DNA from: Kiritimatiellia bacterium
Lineage (GTDB): Bacteria; Verrucomicrobiota; Kiritimatiellia; RZYC01
Length of the DNA stretch: 32,217 nucleotides
Assembly: GCA_028708815.1 (NCBI GenBank)
Contig: JAQVYB010000022.1
Location: 1-32,217, forward strand
Direction: 5' to 3'
Shown one piece after another: positions 2,963 through 23,221 of this stretch. The translations under genes and the position numbers were made by a program. The notes under the pieces are model-generated. The model made no database searches. It worked only from the letters and a program-made list of their open reading frames with translations, and was not told the origin of the DNA. Numbering within the stretch: the stretch's first letter is position 1; each line of letters begins with the position of its first letter.

Positions 2963-4267
2963 TTATCTAGCTGAATGAGACAATCTCTTAACCTGATCGA
3001 CAATGTCCTGTAAAGAAATGGATGCCATGCAATCGCGCAATTCAGCCGTTCCGGGTTGTATGCAGGCGGATCGTGGGGGTTCAATGGCGGGGGTGATGCA
3101 GGGTGGACAATCCAGGCTTCCGTGGACATCCGCCACGCGGTCCGGACGGGTCACCGCGCCGGTAAGTGCCACATTGCTTGGGCCGTACAGCGCCACACAG
3201 GGAACGCCGAGGGCCGCGGCCATATGCATGGGGCCGGAATCCAGGGAAACCACCACATCGGCCAGCGCCGTGACTGCCATGAGAGTGGGAAGAGAAACCG
3301 GCGGGAGCGTCAGCACATTATGTGGCATTCGGGCCTTTTTCAGGAGCAGATTCAGTGTTTCACACTGCGGATCCGTGGCAAAAACGACAACACCGAATTG
3401 CGAGGCCAGTTGTTCGGCCAGCCTTAGCCATTGCTGTTCGTCCCAAAGACGGCCCGGCCATTTTGCGCCGGGGCAGATCAGCACAAAATCTTTTGCGACG
3501 ATGTTTCGGGCGTCCAGCAGGCTGGCGGCATCGCACTGCCAGGCGTCGGGGATGGTCAGGTGTGGATGATACGAGGGATTATTCTGGTAGCTGGAATAGG
3601 ACTGATCAGCCTCCTCGGGATAAAACGGCAACAGCGCCCGCTCCATGAGGTGATGCGCGTTTGGTTTGTATGAAACGATGTCGCCGGAATGCGTGGTGCA
3701 TTGAAATTCCGGTCCAAGGTAGCCCATTCGCATATGCGTTTTGAGCCAACGAACAGCAAAGCGTCCGGTTTGGGCAGGGGAAAGAACAGCGCATCCGTCA
3801 TAATCGGTCCGATGCGCCAGCAGACGAAAAGCCAGCCCGACGGCGCGTGGCGCAGTCATGGGCGACGGTAGACTGATCGCTTCATCATACGAGGGACCCA
3901 GCGGCAGAAGCGGAGTCACCTGTCGCCGCACGGCCCAGGAGATACGAATATTGTGATCACGGGTAAAGCGTGCAACCACGTGTTGTGAAAGAATCCAATC
4001 ACCGATGCGTCCGGGTTCTATGAAAAGCCAAGTCATGGTTTCAGCATGGTTGACAATGCCGGGCGATTCAATCCAAAAACGTTGATCGAACCACGAAACA
4101 CCCCGGTTTTCGAAACCAATCCGATTAGGACAATGACCAGCGAATGAAAGGCCCAGCGAATAAATGAGGTCGTGCAGCCAGCGGTCCCGGAAACGAGGTG
4201 CGTCAGGCCACCCGGGGTACAAGGCGGGCACGAGGGGCTGAACTCGTGTCCGCGACGAGGGCGACAA
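2963..4267 (-). CDS. GT9-family glycosyltransferase (heptosyltransferase-like)
   Basis: Predicted GT-B fold glycosyltransferase of family 9, the family of ADP-heptose:LPS heptosyltransferases, acting at the cytoplasmic face of the inner membrane on lipopolysaccharide core or a related glycan. The N-terminal Rossmann start is MTWLFIEPGRIGDWILS at residues 78-94, corresponding to the usual 'xxLIIRxxxIGDxxLS'. The second half has ICPGAKWPGRLW (264-275) and the family signature DSGPMH (343-348) followed by GVPCVALYGPS. Four late cysteines (387, 390, 402, 413) may form a structural pair set. The start is uncertain: family members normally begin where M78 lies (ATG at 4036), but the 77 residues upstream stay open and have coding-like codon use back to a TTG at 4267. 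Neither start has a good ribosome binding site. Confidence 0.82.
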   Translation of the reverse strand: MSPSSRTRVQPLVPALYPGWPDAPRFRDRWLHDLIYSLGLSFAGHCPNRIGFENRGVSWFDQRFWIESPGIVNHAETMTWLFIEPGRIGDWILSQHVVARFTRDHNIRISWAVRRQVTPLLPLGPSYDEAISLPSPMTAPRAVGLAFRLLAHRTDYDGCAVLSPAQTGRFAVRWLKTHMRMGYLGPEFQCTTHSGDIVSYKPNAHHLMERALLPFYPEEADQSYSSYQNNPSYHPHLTIPDAWQCDAASLLDARNIVAKDFVLICPGAKWPGRLWDEQQWLRLAEQLASQFGVVVFATDPQCETLNLLLKKARMPHNVLTLPPVSLPTLMAVTALADVVVSLDSGPMHMAAALGVPCVALYGPSNVALTGAVTRPDRVADVHGSLDCPPCITPAIEPPRSACIQPGTAELRDCMASISLQDIVDQVKRLSHSAR

Positions 4268-4287: not shown

Positions 4288-4995
4288 ATGTACGAACTTA
4301 TTGTAGTTATGCCGGTTTACAATGAAGAGGGGTGCATTGCCTCCGTGGTAAGGGAGTGGACCGCAATGCTGGATTCACTCAATATGGACTATCAGTTGAT
4401 GGTACTCAATGACGGTTCAAAAGACAAAACAGGGGATGTTTTATCTGCTTTTTCCTCCGACCAGCACATTCGTGTAATCAACAAACCCAATTCGGGTCAT
4501 GGCCCTACTATTTTGCAGGGGTATCGAATGGCTTGCGAGGAAGCTGCTTGGGTTTTCCAGTGTGACAGTGACGGCGAGATGTCTCCCGATGCCTTTCCCG
4601 TTTTGTGGGAAAAGCGTGAAGGCTATGACGCACTTTTCGGTTATCGGAATCATCGCATCCAATCTAGGGGAAGGGCGTTCATTAGTGCGGTTTCACGAAT
4701 GACCGTCCGATTGTTTTTTGGTCCAGGAGTGCATGATGTTAACACGCCCTATCGCCTCATACGGGCGAATGTTCTCAAAACGATCCTTTTACGTACCCCG
4801 GATGACACCTTTGCACCCAACATCATTATTTCCGGAGAATTAGTTCGCCAAAAACACAGGGTTTTCAAGACTCCCGTTGCTACGGTTACGAGGGCCACAG
4901 GACGTAGTTCCATCGTTAAGTGGAAACTATGGAAAGCAGCCGTTCACTCATTCTGGCAAACATGGTGTTATTTTGCTTTGAGTTCCCGGATTTGA
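4288..4995 (+). CDS. GT2-family glycosyltransferase, DPM1/DPG synthase-like
   Basis: Predicted GT2 glycosyltransferase resembling polyprenyl-phosphate sugar synthases, which load a sugar onto a lipid carrier at the cytoplasmic membrane face. Visible elements are MPVYNEEGCI (8-17), the donor-binding NDGSKDKT (41-48), KPNSGHGPTILQGYR (66-80) and the metal-binding DSD at 93-95 in QCDSDGEM. It is 235 residues long and lacks the paired C-terminal membrane helices of GtrB-type enzymes; only a short hydrophobic end (FWQTWCYFAL) is present. The gene diverges from the GT9 gene, whose longest reading frame begins 20 bp away. The ATG at 4288 has no strong ribosome binding site. Such lipid-linked sugars could feed the GT-C membrane enzymes encoded later in the window, but this link is inference. 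Confidence 0.85.
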   Translation: MYELIVVMPVYNEEGCIASVVREWTAMLDSLNMDYQLMVLNDGSKDKTGDVLSAFSSDQHIRVINKPNSGHGPTILQGYRMACEEAAWVFQCDSDGEMSPDAFPVLWEKREGYDALFGYRNHRIQSRGRAFISAVSRMTVRLFFGPGVHDVNTPYRLIRANVLKTILLRTPDDTFAPNIIISGELVRQKHRVFKTPVATVTRATGRSSIVKWKLWKAAVHSFWQTWCYFALSSRI

Positions 4996-5096: not shown

Positions 5097-7463
5097 ATGA
5101 GTATAAGAAGGCATATTTCACTTATTCTTGCGCTTATGTCAGCGTTTGCATCCACGCCAGCGGTGGGTGCCGCGTATTATGTTGCCACGAATGGCTCGAA
5201 TTCCGCCAGCGGACTATCAACGGGAACGCCGTGGCGGACGATTGGATACGCCGTCAACCGAGTTAATGCGGGCGATACGGTTTATATCCGAGGGGGCGAG
5301 TATCGGGAGTTTGTGGACTGCACTAATACAAGAGGGCGGGTGGATGCATGGATTACCGTTCAGGCATACAGCAACGAAATCCCTGTCATAAAAGGATCCG
5401 ATATCGTCACTGGCTGGGTCCAGCATTCGAGTTCCATATGGAAAAAAACGAATTGGACAGTTAACTCCCAGCAGGTTTTTGTGGATGGGAATCTACTGCA
5501 GCAGATCGGATGGCCGAATGATTATGTCTCAACGAATGCCTTTTCGTGTAGCATGGGCGCCTACGTTTACATTCCTTTCGGGCATTCCTGTACGGAAATC
5601 GATACAAAGAAAAACCCGTTCATAACTATTAATGGGTTGGCTGAAATGGTCCCTTATAGTTTCTTTTACGACAAAAATGCAAAAACGCTCTATATGCGCC
5701 TGAATACAGGTGACGATCCAAGCACTCATCGGGTTGAGGTTAGCACGCGTTACGGGCATTTTTATGCTTGGCAGGATACTAAGTATATCCGGCTGAGTGG
5801 ACTAGGCTTTCGACATAATAGTTCATTTATGGTATCCCCCTACGGTTGGCCGGGGGTCATGCTGGGGAATGCCTGTATTTTGGAAGACAGTGACGTTCAG
5901 TGGTGCGATGCGCCTGCGGTGGCGTTTCACCATAACGCCCAACTATTGCGAACCCATGTCAGTAATAATGGAATGGATGGGGCCCGCGTGGCATCCGCCA
6001 CTAATGTGGTTATAGCCTCTTGTGAAATTACATATAATAACTATCGTCGAGTAAGTGGCAACTATCTCGCAGGTATAAAATGTCATCCTGATTCAAGCGG
6101 TATTGTTGAAAGCAATGAGGTGGCGTGGAATCGCTCAATTGGAGTTTGGTTTGATACTTGCAAGACTGGAAATCCCATCATTATCCGAAATAACAGAATA
6201 CATCATAACAGGCAACAAGTGCCCTGTGCAAACGTCTTGGAATGGAGTGCTCCCGGTATTTTTGTCGAGTATAGCGTGAATGCGGATGTTCATGATAACC
6301 TGATATACAGCAATGCGATTTCTGGGATTGAAATATCAGGCTCTTCAAACTGTCGCTTTTACAATAATACCATAGAGGGAACCTATCGTCCTCAAGGTTT
6401 CCCATCATACGCAAGAACCTATACCATGTTTATGTATGTACATTATTCAACGGAATCGAATATAAACAATCGCATATACAATAATATCTTTGCTTATAAC
6501 AATACTGATTTTGACCTCTATGCATCACCACAGAATAGTATAAATATATCCGGGAATATGATCGATTATAATTGCTACTACAGGCATTCAGAAGCAAGTG
6601 CTTCTAAGCCCTCCCTTGAAAAAGCTTTCGATGCAGGACTTTATTATCCGAGCGAAACATTTTGCAATGCGCTGACGTTCAATAATTCCTTTGGTTTAGC
6701 TTCTGCATGGTCGAATCTGTCAGCGTGGAGTGCAGCAACAGGCTGGGACTCCAACAGCATTGCCGCTGATCCGATGTTGATTCCGGCAGGCCACTTGGCA
6801 ACGAACTCGCCCTGCGTGGATAGCGGGGTGGTGAGTACGTTTATGAATCTGACGGTGGATTTGGACGGGAATCCGAGGATCATGGGTGCGCGGATTGATA
6901 TGGGGGCGTTTGAGCTGGGTGAGTTTCTGTGTGACTTTTCGCAGAATGTGTGGACGGGGCTTTATCCGTTGGCTGTGACATTTACCGGGGCGGGCGTTGG
7001 AACGAATTCCGAGGTGGTGTGGTACGGATGGGATTTTGATGGGGATGGGGCCGTGGATGTCGAGGGAGCTGACGCTTCGTGCGTGACGAATGTTTATGCG
7101 GCACCGGGAAATTACACAGTGGGCCTGTATGTGAGCAACAGTGTGGGGGAGGCGGCCTCCAAAGTCAAAACGGATGCGGTTCGCGCAATGGTTCAATATC
7201 CACCGGGCGTGTTTACCTTTCGAGCGGTGGCGCTGACCAACAGCGTAACGCTTCGTTGGGCATCTCCGGTATCCATCGGCGTTTCCAATGCGTTGGTTCG
7301 TGTCCGATTCGGGACGAATGATTATCCGGCGAGTCTCTCAGATGGGGATTTGCTGACCACCACGACGAATCAGTTTTATACGCATACGAATCTTGTGAGT
7401 GGAACCACATACTTCTACACGATTTGGGTGAGTCACGATGGCGTGAATTTTCATGAGCCGTAA
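5097..7463 (+). CDS. Secreted right-handed beta-helix protein with PKD and FN3-like domains
   Basis: Predicted secreted or surface protein of 788 residues. A signal peptide spans residues 1-25 with likely cleavage after AVGA. Residues 26-600 begin with AYYVATNGSNSASG and TIGYAVNRVNAGDTVYIRGG, the standard opening of parallel beta-helix polysaccharide-binding or lyase-like proteins, followed by many N-rich turns (ITYNNY, IRNNRIHHN, IYNNIFAYNN) typical of PbH1 rungs. A PKD domain follows at about 612-698 (WDFDGDGAVD, APGNYTVGLYVSN), and an FN3-like domain at about 701-788 (VTLRWASP, VSGTTYFYTIWVS). There is no PEP-CTERM or other sorting tail. It could be a polysaccharide lyase/epimerase or an adhesin-like glycan binder; no catalytic residues can be assigned. 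The gene ends just before a strong terminator. Confidence 0.85.
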   Translation: MSIRRHISLILALMSAFASTPAVGAAYYVATNGSNSASGLSTGTPWRTIGYAVNRVNAGDTVYIRGGEYREFVDCTNTRGRVDAWITVQAYSNEIPVIKGSDIVTGWVQHSSSIWKKTNWTVNSQQVFVDGNLLQQIGWPNDYVSTNAFSCSMGAYVYIPFGHSCTEIDTKKNPFITINGLAEMVPYSFFYDKNAKTLYMRLNTGDDPSTHRVEVSTRYGHFYAWQDTKYIRLSGLGFRHNSSFMVSPYGWPGVMLGNACILEDSDVQWCDAPAVAFHHNAQLLRTHVSNNGMDGARVASATNVVIASCEITYNNYRRVSGNYLAGIKCHPDSSGIVESNEVAWNRSIGVWFDTCKTGNPIIIRNNRIHHNRQQVPCANVLEWSAPGIFVEYSVNADVHDNLIYSNAISGIEISGSSNCRFYNNTIEGTYRPQGFPSYARTYTMFMYVHYSTESNINNRIYNNIFAYNNTDFDLYASPQNSINISGNMIDYNCYYRHSEASASKPSLEKAFDAGLYYPSETFCNALTFNNSFGLASAWSNLSAWSAATGWDSNSIAADPMLIPAGHLATNSPCVDSGVVSTFMNLTVDLDGNPRIMGARIDMGAFELGEFLCDFSQNVWTGLYPLAVTFTGAGVGTNSEVVWYGWDFDGDGAVDVEGADASCVTNVYAAPGNYTVGLYVSNSVGEAASKVKTDAVRAMVQYPPGVFTFRAVALTNSVTLRWASPVSIGVSNALVRVRFGTNDYPASLSDGDLLTTTTNQFYTHTNLVSGTTYFYTIWVSHDGVNFHEP

Positions 7464-7500: not shown

Positions 7501-7527
7501 CCTGCGCGAAAGCGCGGGCTTTTTTTA
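7501..7527 (+). terminator. Rho-independent terminator of the beta-helix gene
   Basis: The stem CCTGCGC-GAAA-GCGCGGG has seven pairs (one T-G), a GAAA tetraloop, and is followed by C and a run of seven T. It lies 37 bp after the stop of the plus-strand gene. The end of the T-run overlaps the stop codon of the convergent minus-strand gene. The reverse strand has no T-run, so it works in one direction only. Confidence 0.88.
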
Positions 7528-10269
7528 TGGGATGATGGCTTGGATGCGATAGGCGCGATGGCTGTTGGTGGTGGTGTTGGTCCAGGTGGTGGCGGAGTCC
7601 CATCCGCGGAAGGCGCTGGATTCGGCGGCAGACCAGGAGGAGGTCAACAATTCGTCGCGATAGAAGACGTTGTAAAAGCGCAGGGAACTGCCGGGCCATT
7701 GCAGAACGATGTTCGTGGACGCCGAGTCATGTGTAATGGCTGCGGTCAATACGCTGGCCGTATCGGTGGGAACGGTCGAGGCAATGTATTCGGCGAGGTT
7801 GTCGGCTGAATCAATGTCGGTATCTGCCGTGGCGACGGCGTTGGTGGAGCCTCCGAAGTATTGATATTCCCACCAGTCGGGCAGGTCGTCGGAATCGGTA
7901 TCCTGATAAATGATGAGTTGAATCGGATCGCTTAGGGTTCGATGCCCGGCATTGTCCATGGCTTCGGCCTGCACGGTTAATATACCCGGTCCATATTCAT
8001 TGGCGCTGATTGCGGTGTTCCACGGAACGCTGTTGGTCAGCGCCTTTTGTTTGCCCTCCACATACAGCAGTACGCCGGTGATGGTGTTGGGTGAGGAGGC
8101 GGTGACGGTGATGGAAATGGTATCCGTGGCGGGGAAGTTGGCGAGATTTACAGGGGTCGTGATTTGGCAGGCGAGGGGAGTGTTGCTGACGCGGAAGGGT
8201 ATGGTGGTGGAACTCCAGGTTCCGACGCCTGTGCCTTCGCGGGCCAGGAAGGTGAGCGTGTGCAGGCCGTCGGCGAGTTGGGTGGTGTCGAGAGTGAATG
8301 AGGCATTCAAGTTGGTTTTTCCGACGGCAAGGAAGAACATGGCCTTGCCCTTGAGGTCGTCGGCGTTGTCGTTGAAGTTGTCTGAAAAACCGGTATTGTC
8401 CAAGTCGCTGCCAATGGTGGGGATAACCTGAAAATCCACATGGAGGTCCGATCCTTCGTAGGTATTTGTGTGGGCAACCAGGTAGGCTTGATAATAGCTG
8501 AGGAAGGAATAATAAGCCTGCTTGTCCAGATACTTCAACTCACAGCCATAGCTTGTTTGGAGGGCGGCATCCGCCTGCATGGCATCGCGCAATTTTTCAA
8601 AGAGATGGATGGCGTTGTCCCCCTCTCCGGCGACGGCCTCGTTCGTGCGGATTTGTCCATCCAAGGTGGTAATGATCACGCGTATGACATCGCCGCTCGC
8701 CGCTGTTCCGGTCAGATAGAGTTGTTCATAGGCGGGATATTTTGTTTCGAGAAAGTGAGGCGATGCGGAATAGGCGAATAGCGTTTGCTCGGGCGCTGTG
8801 CCGGAGACGGCGGTGACGCCGGAGGTGAGGGAGACCGCAGAAATGCCGGGTGTTTTCTGAAGAATCAGCAGTCGGTCGCCTTTTGCTTCGGCCTGATAGT
8901 CATGAGGAGGATGAGCATTGATGGCCGTGCTTAGACGCTGAGCCGCGCCATAAAGCGTCTCTCCGTTTGTAATGGTGATGGATCGAGTAATGTTGCCCAC
9001 CCGGGCTGTGATTGCGTTTCCGGCGGACGGGGAAAGGTTGGTGAGAGTTCCCCGGAATGTTCCATCTATATAGTAATCCAGGCGGTCCAGGGGTTGATGG
9101 GGGCTGAACGCGGTTGCCTGAACACTCAGAGGGACGTTGCCGGTCAGCGGTTCAGAGGTCAATCCGGTTACGCTGAGTGTTGCTTTCCTGGCAAAGGGAG
9201 CGGTCAGGGGATCACCTGCAAACACCCCCTGATAAGGATTCTTAACGGACATATAGAGCGATTCGCCCAGGCTGAATCCCCGAGCATACCAATAGAGGTG
9301 CCGTGTATCGGGGAATTTCTCGGTATAGGCGCAGGGTTCAACACAAGTTCCGTAGGATCCGGCACATCCGGCTGCGAGCCAATGGGTCAGGCGCATTTGG
9401 CCGTTATGATAAGGATCTTCCGCATAATACAGGTCTCCACCGTAGGAGGTCAGGTTGTGCCCAATCGCACCGGGTGCGTAGTGGTTCTGATACAGATCGT
9501 AAAGAAGACTCATGCGTCCATTGACATAGCCGATAACGTTTGTTGCTCCGGTAACGATATTGGTGTCGAGTAGATTCCGATTCGGTGGTGTTGCGAGGAA
9601 GCGCAGCAGATAATCGGTTCCGAAATATTGTTTCCACTGAACGGCCCGTGCGGAGTCGTCGGGATGGACCAGCAGAATGGTTGGCGTGTTGGTGGTCGAG
9701 ACGCTGTCGGCCTGCACGGCCCGATCAATGATTCGGCGCGAAGCATCCACCTCCGGCATAGTGATCATAAAGCAAAGGCGTTGGGTTGCAGGGGAGTCCT
9801 GCAAGTCAGAAGGGAAGGCCCGCTCCGTTTCATAGTATTGGTTGGTGGTATACACGGGGAGGGCGCAACTGTCGGGCGAGTCCTTGATGCCGTAGAACAT
9901 GGCCGCCGTAATGCTGTTTATGTTCACGAGTGGGCTTTCAGGTGCCGCAACCCGGTAAGGGATGTCTTGAGACAGGACAATGGTGTTTATCTGGTTGGAC
10001 AGGTTGTAATCGTGGATATGATTAAGAATGGGGATGTATACTTCATTGGAGAATGTGGCCCGTAGGATGGTTTGGGTTGGCTGGGTGGTTATGTGGCAGA
10101 TATTCCGCTCCGGGATGCCGCGTTGCTGTGCATAGTAATGGCCGATGGTTTGGGAGGAGGGGCTGGCGTCGTTGACGACGACCAGCGTATGCAACGGGTG
10201 GAGGCCGGCAAGCGCCGAGGTGGACAGCGCAAGCAGGAAAAGTTTAAGCCATATTTTACTCCGCTTCAT
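7525..10269 (-). CDS. TIGR03790-family secreted protein, long multidomain form
   Basis: Secreted protein of about 914 residues with an N-terminal TIGR03790 domain, a family of unknown function that, as I recall its description, occurs in genomes with the PEP-CTERM/exosortase system. The signal peptide is residues 1-21 (KIWLKLFLLALSTSALA). The domain runs from about 23 to 360: LHTLVVVNDASPSSQTIGHY, HNLTSYGG at 271-278, AGCAGSYGTCVEPCAY at 300-315 and AGDPLTAPF at 351-359. Ig-like and unclassified beta modules follow, then a calcium-binding-type linker (DTDSDDLPDWWEYQYFGG) and a C-terminal domain with VLQWPGSSLRFYNVFY. The ATG at 10269 begins the signal peptide; upstream in-frame starts exist at 10299 and 10332. 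The gene is head to head with its shorter paralogue. The three cysteines in the AGCAGSYGTCVEPC loop are absent from the paralogue. Confidence 0.85.
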   Translation of the reverse strand: MKRSKIWLKLFLLALSTSALAGLHPLHTLVVVNDASPSSQTIGHYYAQQRGIPERNICHITTQPTQTILRATFSNEVYIPILNHIHDYNLSNQINTIVLSQDIPYRVAAPESPLVNINSITAAMFYGIKDSPDSCALPVYTTNQYYETERAFPSDLQDSPATQRLCFMITMPEVDASRRIIDRAVQADSVSTTNTPTILLVHPDDSARAVQWKQYFGTDYLLRFLATPPNRNLLDTNIVTGATNVIGYVNGRMSLLYDLYQNHYAPGAIGHNLTSYGGDLYYAEDPYHNGQMRLTHWLAAGCAGSYGTCVEPCAYTEKFPDTRHLYWYARGFSLGESLYMSVKNPYQGVFAGDPLTAPFARKATLSVTGLTSEPLTGNVPLSVQATAFSPHQPLDRLDYYIDGTFRGTLTNLSPSAGNAITARVGNITRSITITNGETLYGAAQRLSTAINAHPPHDYQAEAKGDRLLILQKTPGISAVSLTSGVTAVSGTAPEQTLFAYSASPHFLETKYPAYEQLYLTGTAASGDVIRVIITTLDGQIRTNEAVAGEGDNAIHLFEKLRDAMQADAALQTSYGCELKYLDKQAYYSFLSYYQAYLVAHTNTYEGSDLHVDFQVIPTIGSDLDNTGFSDNFNDNADDLKGKAMFFLAVGKTNLNASFTLDTTQLADGLHTLTFLAREGTGVGTWSSTTIPFRVSNTPLACQITTPVNLANFPATDTISITVTASSPNTITGVLLYVEGKQKALTNSVPWNTAISANEYGPGILTVQAEAMDNAGHRTLSDPIQLIIYQDTDSDDLPDWWEYQYFGGSTNAVATADTDIDSADNLAEYIASTVPTDTASVLTAAITHDSASTNIVLQWPGSSLRFYNVFYRDELLTSSWSAAESSAFRGWDSATTWTNTTTNSHRAYRIQAIIP

Positions 10270-10297
10270 TTCGTAAATAATAGTAGATTCTTTGACC

Positions 10298-11746
10298 ATG
10301 AATGTAAAAGACGCATATTCTCGTTTGCACAATAAAGAGACACCCGGGAAGCGCGGCGACCGCCGGCGGATCGGGCGTTGTGCGTGGTTTTTGGCCTTGC
10401 TGTTTTCCGGGGTGATGGCTGCGCAGGCGTTGGGTCCGCATCAGGTGGTGGTGGTGGTGAATCGCCATGCGCCGGATTCGCAGACGGTGGCCGACCATTA
10501 TGTGAAAATACGCGGGATTCCGCCTTCGCATGTGATTGCTGTGGAGGTACCTGAAAAAAGTCTGAAGCCGCCCTATGCGATCAGTCGGGATGAGTTTATG
10601 TCGGCGATTTTCACTCCGGTGGAGGCCGCAATCAAAGAACGGAATCTTCCTCCGATTTATGCGTGGATTTATTCGGTGGGATTCCCCACCAAGGTGAGCA
10701 CGGGGAGTACCGATGATCTCTCCATTCACGGGATGACGTTTTTGCGCGGGCGTGTGCCGTCTGCGTCCGAGGTCAAGCAGGGTAAATACGCTTCGCCGTT
10801 GTTTGCGGGCCCGGAGATGCCGAAGGGCACCGTGAGCGCGGCGCGTTCGTTTGATGTTTCGATGCGCGGGGCACTCGAGAATTATCCGATTCCAAGTATG
10901 TCGCTGGGGTTTATTGGTCCGGGGGGAAGCACGCTCGAATCGGTCTTGCGGTGTCTGACTCGGGGGGGATTGTCCGACGGAAGCGCACCGGGAGGCACCG
11001 TGTATTTGATCAAAAACTCCGATGTACGCTCGACCGCCCGTGATTGGCAGTTTGCGCCCATTCAGGGAATTCTGACGAAAATGAACATCCGTTGCCAGGT
11101 GTTGACCAATGAAATCAGCGGGAAGACGGATATTCTTGGTCTTCAGAACGGGAGAACGCACATTGATGCCGTGGGCTACGGGCGTTATCTTCCGGGGGCC
11201 ATGGCCGAGCATCTGACCAGTTTCGGAGCGGGGTTCGATGATCCCGGCCAGACTCACTGCACGGACTGGATCAACGCGGGGGCGACGGCTTCCTCGGGTA
11301 CCATCACGGAACCGTATGCGATCTGGACCAAGTTTCCGGCGGCTACCTTTTATGTGTATTACGCACAGGGCTGCACGGTGATCGAGAGTTTCTATCAGTC
11401 GGTGAAATGTCCCTTGCAGCTTTTCATGGTGGGCGATCCGCTGGCGAGTCCGTGGCGTCGGATGTTTTCGCTCACGCTGGTGAGTCTGGAGGACGGCCCG
11501 CTCTCCGGCATGGCTGATTTTTTTGTGCAGGTATTTCCCGCGCCTCCACCTGGTGCGGGCATACGTTTCAGGGCGTATCTGGATGGAGTACCGGTTTTTC
11601 AACCACCCATGGCGTCCGGGATTTCACTGGATACGCGAAAAGTTTCGAATGGTGTTCACCGGTTGCGTGTGGTGGCGGAGTTTGGTGGAAATGTGACGTG
11701 GTCGGCGTATGACGAGCTGACTTTCGAGGTGAAGAACGAGGAATAA
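10298..11746 (+). CDS. TIGR03790-family secreted protein, short form
   Basis: Second TIGR03790-family protein, about 482 residues. A basic N-terminus (GDRRRIGR) and hydrophobic stretch (WFLALLFSGVMAAQALG, ending near 46) form the signal peptide. The family domain covers about 46-390: HQVVVVVNRHAPDSQTVADHY, then HLTSFGAGFDDPGQTH at 305-320, NAGATASSGTITEPYA at 326-341 and MVGDPLASPW at 377-386. These align with the motifs of the longer paralogue encoded divergently. A single Ig-like module closes the protein and there is no sorting signal. The ATG at 10298 is 28 bp from the start of the divergent gene, and a TTG at 10292 is an alternative; no ribosome binding site is clear. It lies 125 bp upstream of the exosortase gene on the same strand and may be co-transcribed with it. 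The biochemical function is unknown. Confidence 0.85.
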   Translation: MNVKDAYSRLHNKETPGKRGDRRRIGRCAWFLALLFSGVMAAQALGPHQVVVVVNRHAPDSQTVADHYVKIRGIPPSHVIAVEVPEKSLKPPYAISRDEFMSAIFTPVEAAIKERNLPPIYAWIYSVGFPTKVSTGSTDDLSIHGMTFLRGRVPSASEVKQGKYASPLFAGPEMPKGTVSAARSFDVSMRGALENYPIPSMSLGFIGPGGSTLESVLRCLTRGGLSDGSAPGGTVYLIKNSDVRSTARDWQFAPIQGILTKMNIRCQVLTNEISGKTDILGLQNGRTHIDAVGYGRYLPGAMAEHLTSFGAGFDDPGQTHCTDWINAGATASSGTITEPYAIWTKFPAATFYVYYAQGCTVIESFYQSVKCPLQLFMVGDPLASPWRRMFSLTLVSLEDGPLSGMADFFVQVFPAPPPGAGIRFRAYLDGVPVFQPPMASGISLDTRKVSNGVHRLRVVAEFGGNVTWSAYDELTFEVKNEE

Positions 11747-11871: not shown

Positions 11872-12831
11872 ATGAATAAAAAGATACACGAATCGGTATG
11901 GAGTGAGCGCTGGAGGCTGGCCCGTTTGAGCAAGGCGGAGTTGCAGCAGATTGGTCTGGTGGCGCTGATTGTCGGGTTGATTTTTGTGGCGTATCAGTTT
12001 TTCGGAAACAACATCAATTTAAAGATGTATGGTCGTTCGGCGTTTGCGTATGTGGCTGGGCGCTGGTCGGACATGGGCGGAGATTTCTCGCACGGCTGGA
12101 TGATCCCGTTTGTCAGCCTGTTTGTGGTGTGGTTCAAGCGGGTGGAGTTGATGACGGCGGCCCGCAAGGTGGATAATCGGGGGTTGGTGCTGATCATTTT
12201 GGCGTTGACGGCGCATTGGCTGGGCGCCAAGTCGGAGCAGACACGTATTTCGCTGATGGCGTTTATCCTGCTGACGTGGTCCATTCCGTTTTATCTGTGC
12301 GGTTGGGAGGTGGCCAAGTGGCTGGTGTTCCCGTGCGCCTATCTGCTCTTTGCCGTGCCCATGAACTTTCTGGAGAGCATTACCTTCCCGCTGCGTATTG
12401 TGGCGACCGTTATTTCCACGAGCGTGCTGAATGGCATTGGTATTGCGGCGCAGCGCTCGGGGTCGGCGATTCACTCGCTGGCGGCGGGCGGTTTTCAGTT
12501 TGATGTGGCGGCGCCGTGCAGCGGTTTGCGTTCCCTGCTGGCGATGACGGCTCTGACGGCGGTGTATGCCTATCTGACGCAACGAACGCTGGTGAGGCAG
12601 TGGCTTCTTTTTCTCAGCGCGATTCCGCTGGCAATCATCGGCAATGTAGCGCGTATTACCACGGTGGCTCTGGTGGCTCAGGCCATGGGTGAGAAACTGG
12701 CGCTGGGCTTGTATCATGATTATTCCGGTTATATTGTGTTCGGCGTTTCCATCATGCTGATGATTGCCATTGGTGCGCTGATGAATATGAATTACTCCGA
12801 GGTGTTGCAGCGATGGAAACAACAGCTTTAA
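11872..12831 (+). CDS. xrt: Exosortase (transmembrane cysteine transpeptidase/protease)
   Basis: Predicted inner-membrane exosortase that cuts PEP-CTERM-type sorting tails from secreted proteins. The protein has 319 residues and eight or so hydrophobic segments. The catalytic triad of the exosortase/archaeosortase family is visible: C216 in APCSGLRSL, R261 in GNVARI and H282 in YHDYSGY, with the early FSHGWMIPFVSLFVVW segment (72-87) typical of the N-terminal half. The next gene, of the EpsI type, overlaps it by 19 bp, the usual partnership in PEP-CTERM/EPS loci. No protein in this window ends with a PEP-CTERM-like motif, so substrates must be encoded elsewhere. The subtype (XrtA, XrtD and so on) cannot be assigned from reading. 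The ATG at 11872 is preceded by a weak GGATAA. Confidence 0.93.
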   Translation: MNKKIHESVWSERWRLARLSKAELQQIGLVALIVGLIFVAYQFFGNNINLKMYGRSAFAYVAGRWSDMGGDFSHGWMIPFVSLFVVWFKRVELMTAARKVDNRGLVLIILALTAHWLGAKSEQTRISLMAFILLTWSIPFYLCGWEVAKWLVFPCAYLLFAVPMNFLESITFPLRIVATVISTSVLNGIGIAAQRSGSAIHSLAAGGFQFDVAAPCSGLRSLLAMTALTAVYAYLTQRTLVRQWLLFLSAIPLAIIGNVARITTVALVAQAMGEKLALGLYHDYSGYIVFGVSIMLMIAIGALMNMNYSEVLQRWKQQL

Positions 12832-13565
12832 AACCCTATCTCTATATTATCGGTGCGTTGATTGTAACGATTCTGCTGCTGGCGTTCACGGTGGATGTCA
12901 GTGTGTCGAATGAGGCAGGTGTTCTGACATCGCTGCCGGACGAGGTGGGCGAGTGGCATGGCGATGAGTTGCGCTTTTGCCAGAACGGCGAGTGTCAGGA
13001 GGAATTCCTGATGAGCGAGCTGAACGGTTCGGAGGTCTGCCCGAAGTGCGGGGCGCCGCTGGGCGGGATGTCGTATATCGAAAAAGCCATTCTTCCGAAT
13101 GATACGCTGATCGTGAAGAAGAAATACAAGAATCCGGACGGCAAGATGGTGTATGCCTCGCTGGTGATGAGTGGAGAGGAACAGGGCAGCATTCACCGTC
13201 CGCAGCTTTGTCTGGTGGGGCAGGGGCGCACGATTGTATCGGACGAGGTGATTGACGTCGCTCTGCCGGGGCGTGATTCGTTGGGTGTGATGGTGTTGAA
13301 TCTGGATCAAACGGTTCGCGGCGGCGATGTGCCGATGGTTATTCCGCAGTATTATGCCTATTGGTTTGTGGGCAAGGACCGCGAGACCCCGCATCATCTC
13401 GAGCGTATGTTCTGGATGGCCTATGACCGGATTATCCGCAATGTGGCTCACCGCTGGGCGTATATTTCCGTGGCGGGACTTCGGGATGCAAATGGCGGAA
13501 AGCTCTACATTGAAGAGATTGATGATTTTGTGCGGAATTTTTATCCGCAGATTTCGTTGCAATAA
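12813..13565 (+). CDS. epsI: EpsI/DUF3485-type exosortase-associated protein with zinc-ribbon-like insert
   Basis: Predicted exosortase partner of the EpsI (DUF3485) family, 250 residues, anchored by one N-terminal membrane helix (about 9-26) with the rest outside the cytoplasm. Family features are SLPDEVGEWHG (40-50), SGEEQGSIHRPQLCLVGQG in the middle and a C-terminal segment ending in VRNFYPQI. The GSIHRPxxCLxGQG stretch is the most conserved part of EpsI proteins and its cysteine is thought to matter for activity. An unusual insert follows the GEWHG segment: C56-X4-C61-X14-C76-X2-C79, ending in CPKCGAPLGG, which looks like a zinc ribbon. The gene overlaps the exosortase gene by 19 bp, so translation is coupled. 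A 9-bp stem-loop begins right after its stop. Confidence 0.88.
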   Translation: METTALKPYLYIIGALIVTILLLAFTVDVSVSNEAGVLTSLPDEVGEWHGDELRFCQNGECQEEFLMSELNGSEVCPKCGAPLGGMSYIEKAILPNDTLIVKKKYKNPDGKMVYASLVMSGEEQGSIHRPQLCLVGQGRTIVSDEVIDVALPGRDSLGVMVLNLDQTVRGGDVPMVIPQYYAYWFVGKDRETPHHLERMFWMAYDRIIRNVAHRWAYISVAGLRDANGGKLYIEEIDDFVRNFYPQISLQ

Positions 13566-14124: not shown

Positions 14125-15075
14125 CTATGCCCCGGCGCATTTTTTCAGTTCCTCATAGAGTGTGCGTTCTTGTTCCGAGAGGTTTTTGGGCACGGAGATT
14201 TTGATTTGCACGAGCAGGTCTCCGGCTGGTTTTTTGCCTGATGCGGGGAGGCCTCGACCTTTGAGGCGCAGCTGGGCGCCACTGGAGGTGCCGGCGGGCA
14301 GGTTCACCGCGAGCTTGTGTCCATCCAGGGCCTGCACCATGACGCGGGCGCCGAGTGCGGCATCGTACGGGGGGATTTGGAGGGTGGTTTGCAGGTCGCG
14401 TCCTTTGAGTTGAAAGCGGGGATGCGGGAGGATGTGAACGCGCAGGTATAGATGGCCGGCGGGCGCTCCGCCCATGCCGGAGCCACCCTGTCCGGCCAGT
14501 CGGATGCGCGAATGGTCGCCGGTACCCGGCGGGATGGATACCTGCATGTTTTTGGTGGCTCGGATGACCCGTCCATTTTCATCCAGATCGGTGGTTTGCA
14601 GGGCGATGCCTTTTCGCGTGCCGTGCACAGCCTCTTCGAGCGTGATGTCCATCGAGGCTTCGTGGTCCTGTCCGCGCATGCGCCAGTTGGGGGCGCCTCC
14701 TGCGAAGGAGCCGGTCTGAGCGCCTCCGAAGAGGGAGGAGAAGAAGTCGCTGAAGCCGCCGAAGTCTTCGGAGCTGAACGCCTGGCCGGAGAAATCCGTC
14801 CCCATACCGCCGGGAGGATGACGCCACCCGGGCGGGGGCGAGAAGTCCTGTCCGGCCTTCCAATTCGCCCCGAGTTCGTCATATTTTTTACGCTTTTCGG
14901 GATCGCCGATTACGTCATACGCCTCGGTGGCCTCCTTGAATTTCTGTTCGGCGCCGGCATCGTGATTGATGTCGGGGTGAAATTTTCGGGCCAATTTACG
15001 ATAGGCTTTTTTGATGTCCTTTTCGCCGGCGTTTTTGTCGATTCCCAGTATCGCGTAATAATCTTTGTATTTCAC
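14125..15075 (-). CDS. cbpA: CbpA/DnaJ-class co-chaperone
   Basis: Predicted DnaJ-type co-chaperone of the CbpA class that stimulates DnaK ATPase. The N-terminal J-domain ([20 protein letters not shown]) carries the essential HPD at residues 33-35, followed by a G/F-rich linker (about 75-130, [16 protein letters not shown]) and the two C-terminal substrate-binding beta domains ([41 protein letters not shown]). There is no cysteine-rich zinc domain, which separates CbpA from DnaJ. The protein has 316 residues, near the family norm. The start is GTG at 15075, with GGAG about nine bases upstream. Its modulator gene cbpM follows immediately. CbpA is often linked to stress and stationary phase; regulation cannot be read here. 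Confidence 0.92.
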
Positions 15076-15124: not shown

Positions 15125-17098
15125 TTATTGAAGGGAAAGAGAGCGAAATGTCAGGGTGGCCGGCGGTTGGTTGGGGGGGAAGAAGAGCTGCAGGGATTCG
15201 ACGGCCTGCATATCCACGATTTTGTTTCCCCGCTGATTGCCGTATCCGGTGTTAAGGCCCATTTCTTTCAGGGGGAGGGTGTAGGGGCCTTCGCCGGGCT
15301 GGATTTCACGGCCGACACCGGTGTAGCCTTCTCCGTCGGCGCCGCCGTATCCGCTGAAGGTCTGGCTGCTTACGGGGCCGCAGCCGGATTCGCTGAGGCT
15401 GGGGCCGACGAGGATGGGGGAGGTGCATTGCAGGTCGACCACGAAGCGGTCGGCGCCAAGCAGCGAAACGGAAGCGTCCGGATTTTTCGGCAGGGCGTCA
15501 CGCGGGAAAAAGGTGATGCCGCAGCCCCATCCGGCGGGATGAATATGCAGGGTGAGGGTGCCGTCGTCGTTTTTTTGTGCGTCGATTTTTCCACCGGCGT
15601 CGGCATCGCCCCAGGTGATGAAGCGCGTGGAAGCGTCGGTAAAGAGGATGGGTTGTGCGAGCGGCTCGTTGGCGCCGCGCAGGGTGGTTTCGCGGAAGTC
15701 GGCGAGTATGTTTGGGTCAACGGGTTGAGGCGTGACTTTGGATTGAGCGTGTATTTCACCGGCGCGTCCATTGATATCGGTGATAACGGAGAGGAGTTCG
15801 TCGTAGGGCTGGTCATAAATATCGAGCAGGCCGTAGTTGGAGTCTTCGCCGTCGAAGCGTCCGGCGGGTGGTTGGTCAAAGAGTTGGAACCAGTGGTAGC
15901 CGAGGATAAACGGCTGTTCGAGGACCTGGGTGGCATAACGGCTGAAGGCATCGGCTCGGTTTTGCTGGGTCGCGACAGTCACATCCGCGCCATGCGTATT
16001 GGGGCACCCGGAGTTGTTTTCCTCGGCGCGCCAGGAGAATTCGGTGATGAGGATGGGCTTGCCGGTCAGGGCGGCCACGGCCCTAAGCAGGGGCAGGTCG
16101 GGTTCGCCGGATTTGCTGTAGGAGTTGATGCTGATGACATCGGCATATTTTCCGCAGGCGGCCATGACCGATTCCTGAGCCCGCCCGGCAAAACGCACGC
16201 CGAGGAAGAGGTGATTGGGGTCGTAGCGTCGGATGGTTTCGGCGCAGAGCTGGAAGTAGCGCTCCGCGACAAGGCCGGCCCAGGCGGCCACGGCCTTGGC
16301 ACTGGTGCGCGCGCCGGAGAGGATGTATTGACGCCCCTGCAGATCTTCGAAGGATTCGGCGCCGGTTTTCCATTCTGCATTGAAGGCCGCAAAATCGTTG
16401 TTGTAATAGTCGCGGAAGAATTTCATCAGGCGCTGTTTTCCGGGTGATTGCGTGGGCAGAAGCATGTAGGAGGTAATGAGGGAAACGCGAGGGGAGGTGG
16501 GCCAGCCGCGTTCGCCGTACCAGGGGAGTTCGTTGTTGGCAAAGTAGCCGATCAGATATTCGTTGGTGGCGTGTGGGGCCACGGTTTTGCGCGCTTCGCG
16601 ATCGACCGCCTCTTCGTAGTCCGGGGAAAATACGTCGGTAAGGCGTCCATCGTTTTTTCCCCAGGGCCCGAGCCAGAGTACGCGGGTGTGCAGCATGGGC
16701 GTTTTTTCATAGAGCACCTCTTCGCTCCATCCGGCCACGGTGTTGAAATTCCAGCTTTTCAGGCGTTCTGCGGCCGTCTGGGCCCAGGCATCGAGATTAT
16801 TCTGATGTTTCGGAAGGGCATTGTAGCGGCGTCCGTCGGACGGTTTCGAACCATCGGCGGGCAGGACGCAGTTGACGCCCAATGAGAGGAATCGTTCATC
16901 GCCCCGTGCGAACCAGGTTTTTCCATTCTCCTGGACCGTTCGTACAAAAGCCGGGTTTTTCATTGCAGGCGCCTCCTTTTCCGAGAGGGGTTCGATGGGG
17001 CTTGATCTGTTGAGGTTGCAGGCGGATGGGAAAAGACCCGTCATGGATGAAAGGATCATAAAGACAATAACCAATGTTTCTTTGATCCTTTTTTTCAT
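15125..17098 (-). CDS. Lipoprotein-like glycoside hydrolase, clan GH-A type (agarase-like)
   Basis: Predicted secreted glycoside hydrolase of about 657 residues with a TIM-barrel. The likely acid/base is E190 in [11 protein letters not shown] and the likely nucleophile E353 in [10 protein letters not shown], the strand-4 and strand-7 pattern of clan GH-A; the 'GYFxxNExxW' stretch resembles GH50-type beta-agarases. The N-terminus has a hydrophobic signal ([19 protein letters not shown]) with C27 as a possible lipidation site, although PSAC is not a perfect lipobox. The last 170 residues form a beta-rich module ([20 protein letters not shown] onward), perhaps carbohydrate-binding. The ATG at 17098 was chosen because it opens the signal peptide; an in-frame upstream ATG at 17137 is less likely. 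The substrate, possibly a marine or mucin-like glycan, is inference. Confidence 0.75.
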
Positions 17099-17209
17099 GC
17101 GAAACCTGCCTTGTTTTGTAAATGAATAGTAATTCATTCGCAGAATAGAAAGATTTGTACGGCCTGTCCATCCCGCAGATGGTACGTGTGCGGGAAAAGC
17201 TGTAGAGAG

Positions 17210-22125: not shown

Positions 22126-23091
22126 ATGAAACGGACACAGATGGCACGATGCGGACTTCTTTTTCTTTTTTTCATGATGGCCGGGGTGATGGTTTCCTCC
22201 GTGTTTGCCGCGCCCGCCGAGTCGAAGTATGTGTATCGGGCGGGTGATTATGATGGAAACGGCTACGATGACCTCTGTGTGTATTATGCCGCTTCCGGCA
22301 CGTGGACGATCTGGTACAACAACAACGGCACGTTGACCGGTCAGGCGACCACTTCGTTCGGATGGAGCGGTGCAAGAGCCGTACCCGCGGATTACGATGG
22401 CGACGGCAAGACGGACCTCGCCGTCTATGCGCCCTCGAGCGGCACCTGGACGATCAACAGCAGCAAAACGAAAAAAACCTACAGTGTGAATTGGGGATGG
22501 AGCGAGGTGGTTCCCGTGCCTGCCGATTATGATGGCGACGGACGGGACGATATTGCGGTGTTTTACCCGGGCGATGGGTCCTGGTCGCTGCGCCTCTCTT
22601 CCGGAAAAACAAGGACGGTGAAGTACGGCTATTCGGCGGTGATTCCGGTTCCGGCAGATTACAATGGTGATGGGCGGGATGATATCGCGGTGTATATTCC
22701 GGATAGCGGCGCCTGGATGGCGGTGGATGTCCAGACCGGCAAGACGGTTCTGAATCAGAATTGGGGTTGGCCGGCGGCACGCCCCGCTCCGGCGGATTAT
22801 TCGGGCGACGGCAAGGCCGACCCGTGCGTGTATGCGGGTGGAACCTGGTATATCAGCTTCCGCAGCGGTGTGACGATGACCGCGCAATGGGGAGGCGGGT
22901 CGGTTAAACTCGTTCCCGGATTCTATCGGTCCTATTACGGAACGGCCTATCCGCACGCGCAGGTCGGGGTATACACAGCCTCCTCCGGCACCTGGGCGCT
23001 GAAGGAAGTGGTGATTGATTTTCTTGACCCGTGGTTCAAACAAGTCAACTTCGGTTGGAGTCAGGCCCTGCCGCCGCCATACCGACCGTAA
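22126..23091 (+). CDS. Secreted FG-GAP/VCBS-like repeat protein
   Basis: Predicted secreted protein of 321 residues made almost only of repeats. A signal peptide (LLFLFFMMAGVMVSSVFA) ends near residue 28. Five repeats of about 45 residues follow, each starting with a calcium-binding-type loop: AGDYDGNGYDDLCVY, PADYDGDGKTDLAVY, PADYDGDGRDDIAVF, PADYNGDGRDDIAVY and PADYSGDGKADPCVY, each followed by SGTWTI-like strands and a WGW turn. A sixth, degenerate repeat (QVGVYTASSGTWAL, then FGWSQALPPP) closes the protein. Such repeats build a beta-propeller seen in integrin-like and surface binding proteins; D-x-D-G-D-G loops bind calcium. There is no catalytic domain and no anchor or sorting tail, so a binding or structural role is likely. 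A good promoter lies upstream; no terminator was found. Confidence 0.85.
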   Translation: MKRTQMARCGLLFLFFMMAGVMVSSVFAAPAESKYVYRAGDYDGNGYDDLCVYYAASGTWTIWYNNNGTLTGQATTSFGWSGARAVPADYDGDGKTDLAVYAPSSGTWTINSSKTKKTYSVNWGWSEVVPVPADYDGDGRDDIAVFYPGDGSWSLRLSSGKTRTVKYGYSAVIPVPADYNGDGRDDIAVYIPDSGAWMAVDVQTGKTVLNQNWGWPAARPAPADYSGDGKADPCVYAGGTWYISFRSGVTMTAQWGGGSVKLVPGFYRSYYGTAYPHAQVGVYTASSGTWALKEVVIDFLDPWFKQVNFGWSQALPPPYRP

Positions 23092-23145: not shown

Positions 23146-23221
23146 TGGCACCCCCAACCGGGTTCGAACCGGTGTTACCAGGATGAGAACCTGGCGTCCT
23201 AGGCCTCTAGACGATGGGGGC
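23146..23221 (-). tRNA. tRNA-Glu (anticodon CTC)
   Basis: Read on the minus strand, the 76-nt gene starts GCCCCCATCGTCTAGAGGCC and ends with encoded G73 and CCA. The acceptor stem is GCCCCCA with TGGGGGT (first pair G-T), the D-arm holds CTAGAGGCCTAG, and the anticodon stem CCAGG/CCTGG encloses the loop TTCTCAT with anticodon CTC, reading GAG. The T-arm is ACCGG-TTCGAAC-CCGGT. The GTCTAGAGGCC-AGGAC region matches glutamate tRNAs closely. Only this one tRNA is present in the window. Confidence 0.95.

Follow-up and report, generated by a model that had tools for sequence, protein, structure and literature searches.

Two divergent TIGR03790-family genes beside an exosortase in a Kiritimatiellia genome: a possible rearranged exosortase and surface-glycan locus

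Exosortases are, to our knowledge, widespread, yet the receiver of the proteins that they sort is poorly known, and we likewise know of no function assigned to TIGR03790, a family that tracks with exosortase and is restricted, according to its family note, to exosortase-bearing genomes. A literature search found no mention of TIGR03790. In the PEP-CTERM/exosortase (EpsH) system, exosortase genes lie almost always among exopolysaccharide genes, and EpsI was without known function at the time of that description (Haft et al. 2006, PMC1569441). The window analysed here, meaning the whole 32,217-nt stretch of contig JAQVYB010000022.1 (assembly GCA_028708815.1), carries two TIGR03790-family genes, termed P1 and P2, head to head and beside an exosortase–EpsI pair, with the following features:

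2963-4267, minus strand: glycosyltransferase family 9 protein, heptosyltransferase-like, possible glycan context (PF01075, 89.1 bits)
4288-4995, plus strand: glycosyltransferase family 2 protein, possible glycan context (PF00535, 65.2 bits)
7525-10269, minus strand: P1, TIGR03790-family protein of 914 aa (NCBIfam TIGR03790, Pfam Big_7, AlphaFold2), with a signal peptide, the TIGR03790 domain at about residues 28-342, beta/Ig-like domains, a DxDxDxLPDWWE Ca-type repeat and a C-terminal domain
10270-10297, no strand: gap of 28 bp between the divergent starts
10298-11746, plus strand: P2, TIGR03790-family protein of 482 aa (NCBIfam TIGR03790, AlphaFold2), with a signal peptide, the TIGR03790 alpha/beta domain at about residues 44-385 and an Ig-like domain at 391-480
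11872-12831, plus strand: exosortase (PF09721, 170.8 bits; TIGR02602, 154.6 bits)
12813-13565, plus strand: EpsI/DUF3485 protein, overlapping the exosortase gene by 19 bp (PF11984, 36.6 bits)

A sequence-only reading of this stretch had described a divergent pair of about 914 and about 482 residues with starts 28 bp apart, and the coordinates bear this out: the ATG codons of P1 (10269, minus strand) and P2 (10298, plus strand) are separated by 28 bases; should P2 begin instead at the in-frame TTG at 10325, which would retain the signal peptide, the separation would be 55 bp (range 28 to 55). Both signal peptides were read by eye at the N-termini. P2 reads into the exosortase and EpsI genes, as had also been described. 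The exosortase exceeds both of its profile cut-offs (25.7 for PF09721 and 105.55 for TIGR02602) and retains the Cys/Arg/His residues C216, R261 and H282, and the EpsI protein scores above the cut-off of PF11984 (26.1) and below that of TIGR02914 (20.4 vs 42.8). Elsewhere in the window, a secreted right-handed beta-helix protein with a PKD domain (5097-7463, plus strand) lies tail to tail with P1, and there are genes for a DnaJ/CbpA-type chaperone (14125-15075, minus strand), a secreted, lipoprotein-like protein of 670 aa with no Pfam or NCBIfam match (15125-17137, minus strand) and an FG-GAP repeat protein (22126-23091, plus strand). An Rfam scan of the window returned nothing but one tRNA (23149-23221, minus strand).

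Family membership, for which a profile search had been named as the test, holds for both proteins, whose whole-protein scores (139.3 bits for P1 and 101.7 bits for P2) exceed the curated NCBIfam cut-off of 67 bits. They are the only TIGR03790 genes in the 4.0-Mb assembly, with no third copy, and for this reason chance adjacency is very unlikely. The shared motifs LTS, G...GT...EP and GDPL do occur in the same order in both proteins, and the exact strings proposed earlier need correction: HLTS-(F/Y)-G describes P2 (EHLTSFG) but not P1 (GHNLTSYGG, with Asn at the aligned His), and AG-x-A-x-S-x-GT holds for P1 but is not an exact description of P2 (AGATASSGT). Similarly, the Ig-like elaboration ascribed to P1 is present as a Pfam Big_7 domain (residues 701-767), but the AlphaFold model of P2 has an Ig-like domain at its C-terminus as well. 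Across 171 sequences comprising canonical, P1 and P2 members, Ser308, Glu338, Pro339, Gly300, Gly328, Gly334 and Gly358 (P2 numbering) are invariant, and Ser308 and Glu338 are the likely functional site of P1 and P2. Canonical TIGR03790 (loci L238-L267) is single-copy in many Verrucomicrobiota, including one genus with genomes of ~2.2-3.3 Mb.

A tree of 68 domains, built by a quick method, resolved P1, P2 and canonical sequences as separate groups (SH-aLRT of 91, 98 and 100, respectively), the P1 of the window grouping with that of the sister genus G001 and its P2 with those of G001 and G002. Because of this separation, together with the 30% identity between P1 and P2 of the source genome, the two are, on these comparisons, old paralogues from two ancient subfamilies with no recent local duplication, and the earlier description of them as duplicated partners was misleading. 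In-place duplication was rejected on the basis of this quick tree. A broader proposal, that the head-to-head pair arose by in-place duplication, shares one bidirectional promoter and forms a dedicated two-partner module, could point to the 28-bp gap and the overlapping promoter-like matches within it; however, these matches were at or near chance level (promoter and terminator scans were uninformative), the proteins belong to different old subfamilies, and the two genes are adjacent in 3 genomes only (the source genome, G001 and G173), in differing layouts, so that we regard this proposal as very improbable. About a dozen genomes carry both genes, and togetherness in 3 of them rules out a conserved dedicated pair; the head-to-head module suggested by the sequence-only reading is thus not conserved. 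P2 relatives occur in 76 of the 113 genera sampled in the class (weak matches counted), and full-length P1 is rarer. Tandem P1 copies lie near glycosyltransferases at L095 (G024) and L104 (G132).

Gene order was compared at 80 P2 loci from public genomes, for which all counts are lower bounds, some contigs ending within the flanks. A GmhB-like HAD phosphatase neighbours P2 in ~30 of these loci, with a 4-bp start-stop overlap between the two genes in ~14, a WbaP/EPS-type glycosylphosphotransferase lies upstream of P2 in about a dozen, and an exosortase lies within 8 kb in 12, for which we estimate an expected chance of ~1% from genome size and copy number. The conserved run in relatives is a WbaP-type glycosylphosphotransferase, P2, a GmhB-like heptose phosphatase, exosortase and EpsI, and WbaP and GmhB are the more conserved partners, which the sequence-only reading had missed. 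The substrate of the GmhB-like phosphatase is uncertain because its score falls under the equivalog cut-off. At other P2 loci, a GHMP kinase-nucleotidyltransferase fusion and a sugar-nucleotide SDR are encoded downstream. The linkage of TIGR03790 to exosortase expected from the earlier reading therefore recurs for P2 (these 12 loci) and for P1 in four genomes including the source genome, but not for the pair beyond the 3 genomes named above; P1 is usually not near an exosortase, and neither are many P2 genes of the class. In the Pontiella group (loci L190-L237), P2 is longer (~565 aa) and adjoins TsaE/TsaB-like or hydrolase genes, named by eye, rather than GmhB.

These relatives also suggest how the 28-bp gap may have arisen. 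In G001, P1 is divergent from WbaP-P2-exosortase-EpsI, and a count on the sequence puts 60 bp between the P1 and WbaP starts; G024 has a pair of P1 genes divergent from WbaP-exosortase-EpsI; and in G173 all genes are co-directional in the order WbaP-P2-P1-GmhB-exosortase-EpsI. In the source genome, a draft assembly of unordered contigs, the closest relative of WbaP is encoded on contig C217 (34162-35541), shares 59% identity with the G001 copy and is immediately followed by a GmhB-like gene. The likely ancestral layout would be P1 divergent from WbaP-P2-(GmhB)-exosortase-EpsI. Once WbaP (and GmhB where present) had moved off in the source lineage, 28 bp would have remained between P1 and P2, and control signals would now overlap the coding ends. 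Because WbaP and GmhB are neighbours on a different contig, the 28-bp spacing is probably derived, a scar left by the removal of WbaP from between P1 and P2, the order of rearrangement being drawn from few genomes.

With regard to function, TIGR03790 and exosortase co-occur above expectation among 57 genomes of relatives (43/2/7/5, Fisher p=0.003, related genomes not being independent), in support of the earlier remark that TIGR03790 tracks with PEP-CTERM systems; the 2 of 45 TIGR03790 carriers in which no exosortase was detected are both draft assemblies. The source genome encodes ~18 PEP-CTERM proteins, all on contigs other than that of P1 and P2. Neither P1 nor P2 matched a PEP-CTERM family in Pfam or NCBIfam scans, and their tails, on reading, are without a PEP-TM-basic end; since they have no such tail in a genome with this many PEP-CTERM proteins, P1 and P2 are themselves probably accessory factors rather than exosortase substrates. 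From the absence of these tails, the co-occurrence with exosortase and the association of exosortases with exopolysaccharide genes (PMC1569441), we infer that P2, and probably P1, would be exported periplasmic or surface accessory proteins. They would act at the point where a lipid-linked, possibly heptose-containing glycan begun by a WbaP-type enzyme and the PEP-CTERM proteins that exosortase releases come together, and would help attach or retain these proteins on the glycan or matrix, a link to the glycan that is suggested by gene neighbourhood. We give about an even chance to this reading as a whole, in which the window holds part of a rearranged Kiritimatiellia exosortase/surface-glycan locus and P2, probably with P1, is accessory to the step between glycan and PEP-CTERM proteins. 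P1 and P2 could instead be ordinary secreted matrix- or cell-wall-binding proteins of polysaccharide clusters, near exosortase through shared envelope-gene clustering and with no common pathway, as their Ig-like domains, the lack of a known catalytic motif, the non-conserved neighbours of P1 and the frequent distance of P2 from exosortase might suggest. The invariance of Ser, Glu and Pro across distant subfamilies, the co-occurrence with exosortase and the repeated operonic order with exosortase-EpsI, including the 4-bp GmhB overlap, argue against this possibility, which we consider distinctly doubtful.

A search for a peptidase-like fold had been proposed. AlphaFold2 predicted a confident alpha/beta domain and an Ig-like domain for P2 (mean pLDDT 88.6), and the same alpha/beta domain with further beta domains for P1 (pLDDT 82). 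Searched against the PDB with both models, Foldseek found no credible counterpart of the alpha/beta domain, its hits being Ig-dominated or poor at full length (query TM-score ~0.2 or less), and PDB sequence searches with P1, P2 and their profiles recovered nothing beyond Ig-like modules. That proposal thus yielded confident models and a weak profile similarity to peptidase C25, but no fold named by Foldseek. When the TIGR03790 profile was compared with ~35 families, its best match apart from TIGR03790 itself was to C25, represented by profiles of C25 peptidases taken from the same genomes (score 26.9-28.8, E 0.005-0.011), and a colinear local alignment, which can extend to GDPL/GDPA, sets HLTS...AGATAS against TPTC...GGAVAV so that invariant Ser308 faces the C25 catalytic Cys. 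Gingipains have an alpha/beta domain followed by an Ig-like domain, an order and a size that P1 and P2 resemble. P1 and P2 may on these grounds have a remote C25/gingipain (clan CD) fold and take part in PEP-CTERM maturation as a peptidase/transpeptidase that is either Ser-based or dead, with a role like that of the type IX sortase PorU. However, the HHalign probability was just 4-7%, the global alignment score varied with the input alignment (17.9 vs 3-7), no gingipain appeared in the Foldseek top 50, and neither protein matched PF01364 (C25) in Pfam, the Cys of the His-Cys dyad being replaced and the His not conserved (the P1 of the window lacks it); we therefore think this explanation unlikely. 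The combined scheme, in which TIGR03790 has a gingipain/PorU-like fold with Ser for Cys and acts downstream of exosortase in joining PEP-CTERM proteins to a heptose-containing surface glycan that WbaP initiates, seems to us quite improbable, although, if true, it would make TIGR03790 the counterpart, in another sorting system, of the type IX secretion sortase. C25 peptidases are common in the class, and the source genome has three C25 (gingipain-family) genes on other contigs (C217:66337-67533, C245:2042-3238 and C11:12259-13467).

Two points are new and useful, the conservation of the run WbaP-P2-GmhB-exosortase and the invariance of Ser and Glu. They place the P2 subfamily with a glycosylphosphotransferase, a phosphatase of the heptose type and exosortase-EpsI, and with Ser308 and Glu338 as candidate residues they offer a possible, testable link from sorted proteins to a surface glycan. 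Compared with peptidase C25 (gingipain, PorU), P1 and P2 share a possible colinear profile similarity, a GDP motif and an alpha/beta domain followed by an Ig-like domain, but are without the catalytic His-Cys dyad, and the similarity is statistically not firm. With canonical verrucomicrobial TIGR03790 they share a homologous domain scoring over the cut-off, in which GA...S, G...G...EP and GDPL are kept; canonical members have HIHS/HLHS and another C-terminal region, whereas P1 and P2 have [HN]LTS, Trp324, KF and Ig-like C-terminal domains. Finally, the locus resembles the PEP-CTERM/exosortase (EpsH) system (PMC1569441) in its exosortase with adjacent EpsI, its scattered PEP-CTERM proteins and its polysaccharide gene context, and differs from it in being divided between two contigs, in its additional P1 and P2 TIGR03790 subfamily genes and in its WbaP-GmhB neighbourhood.
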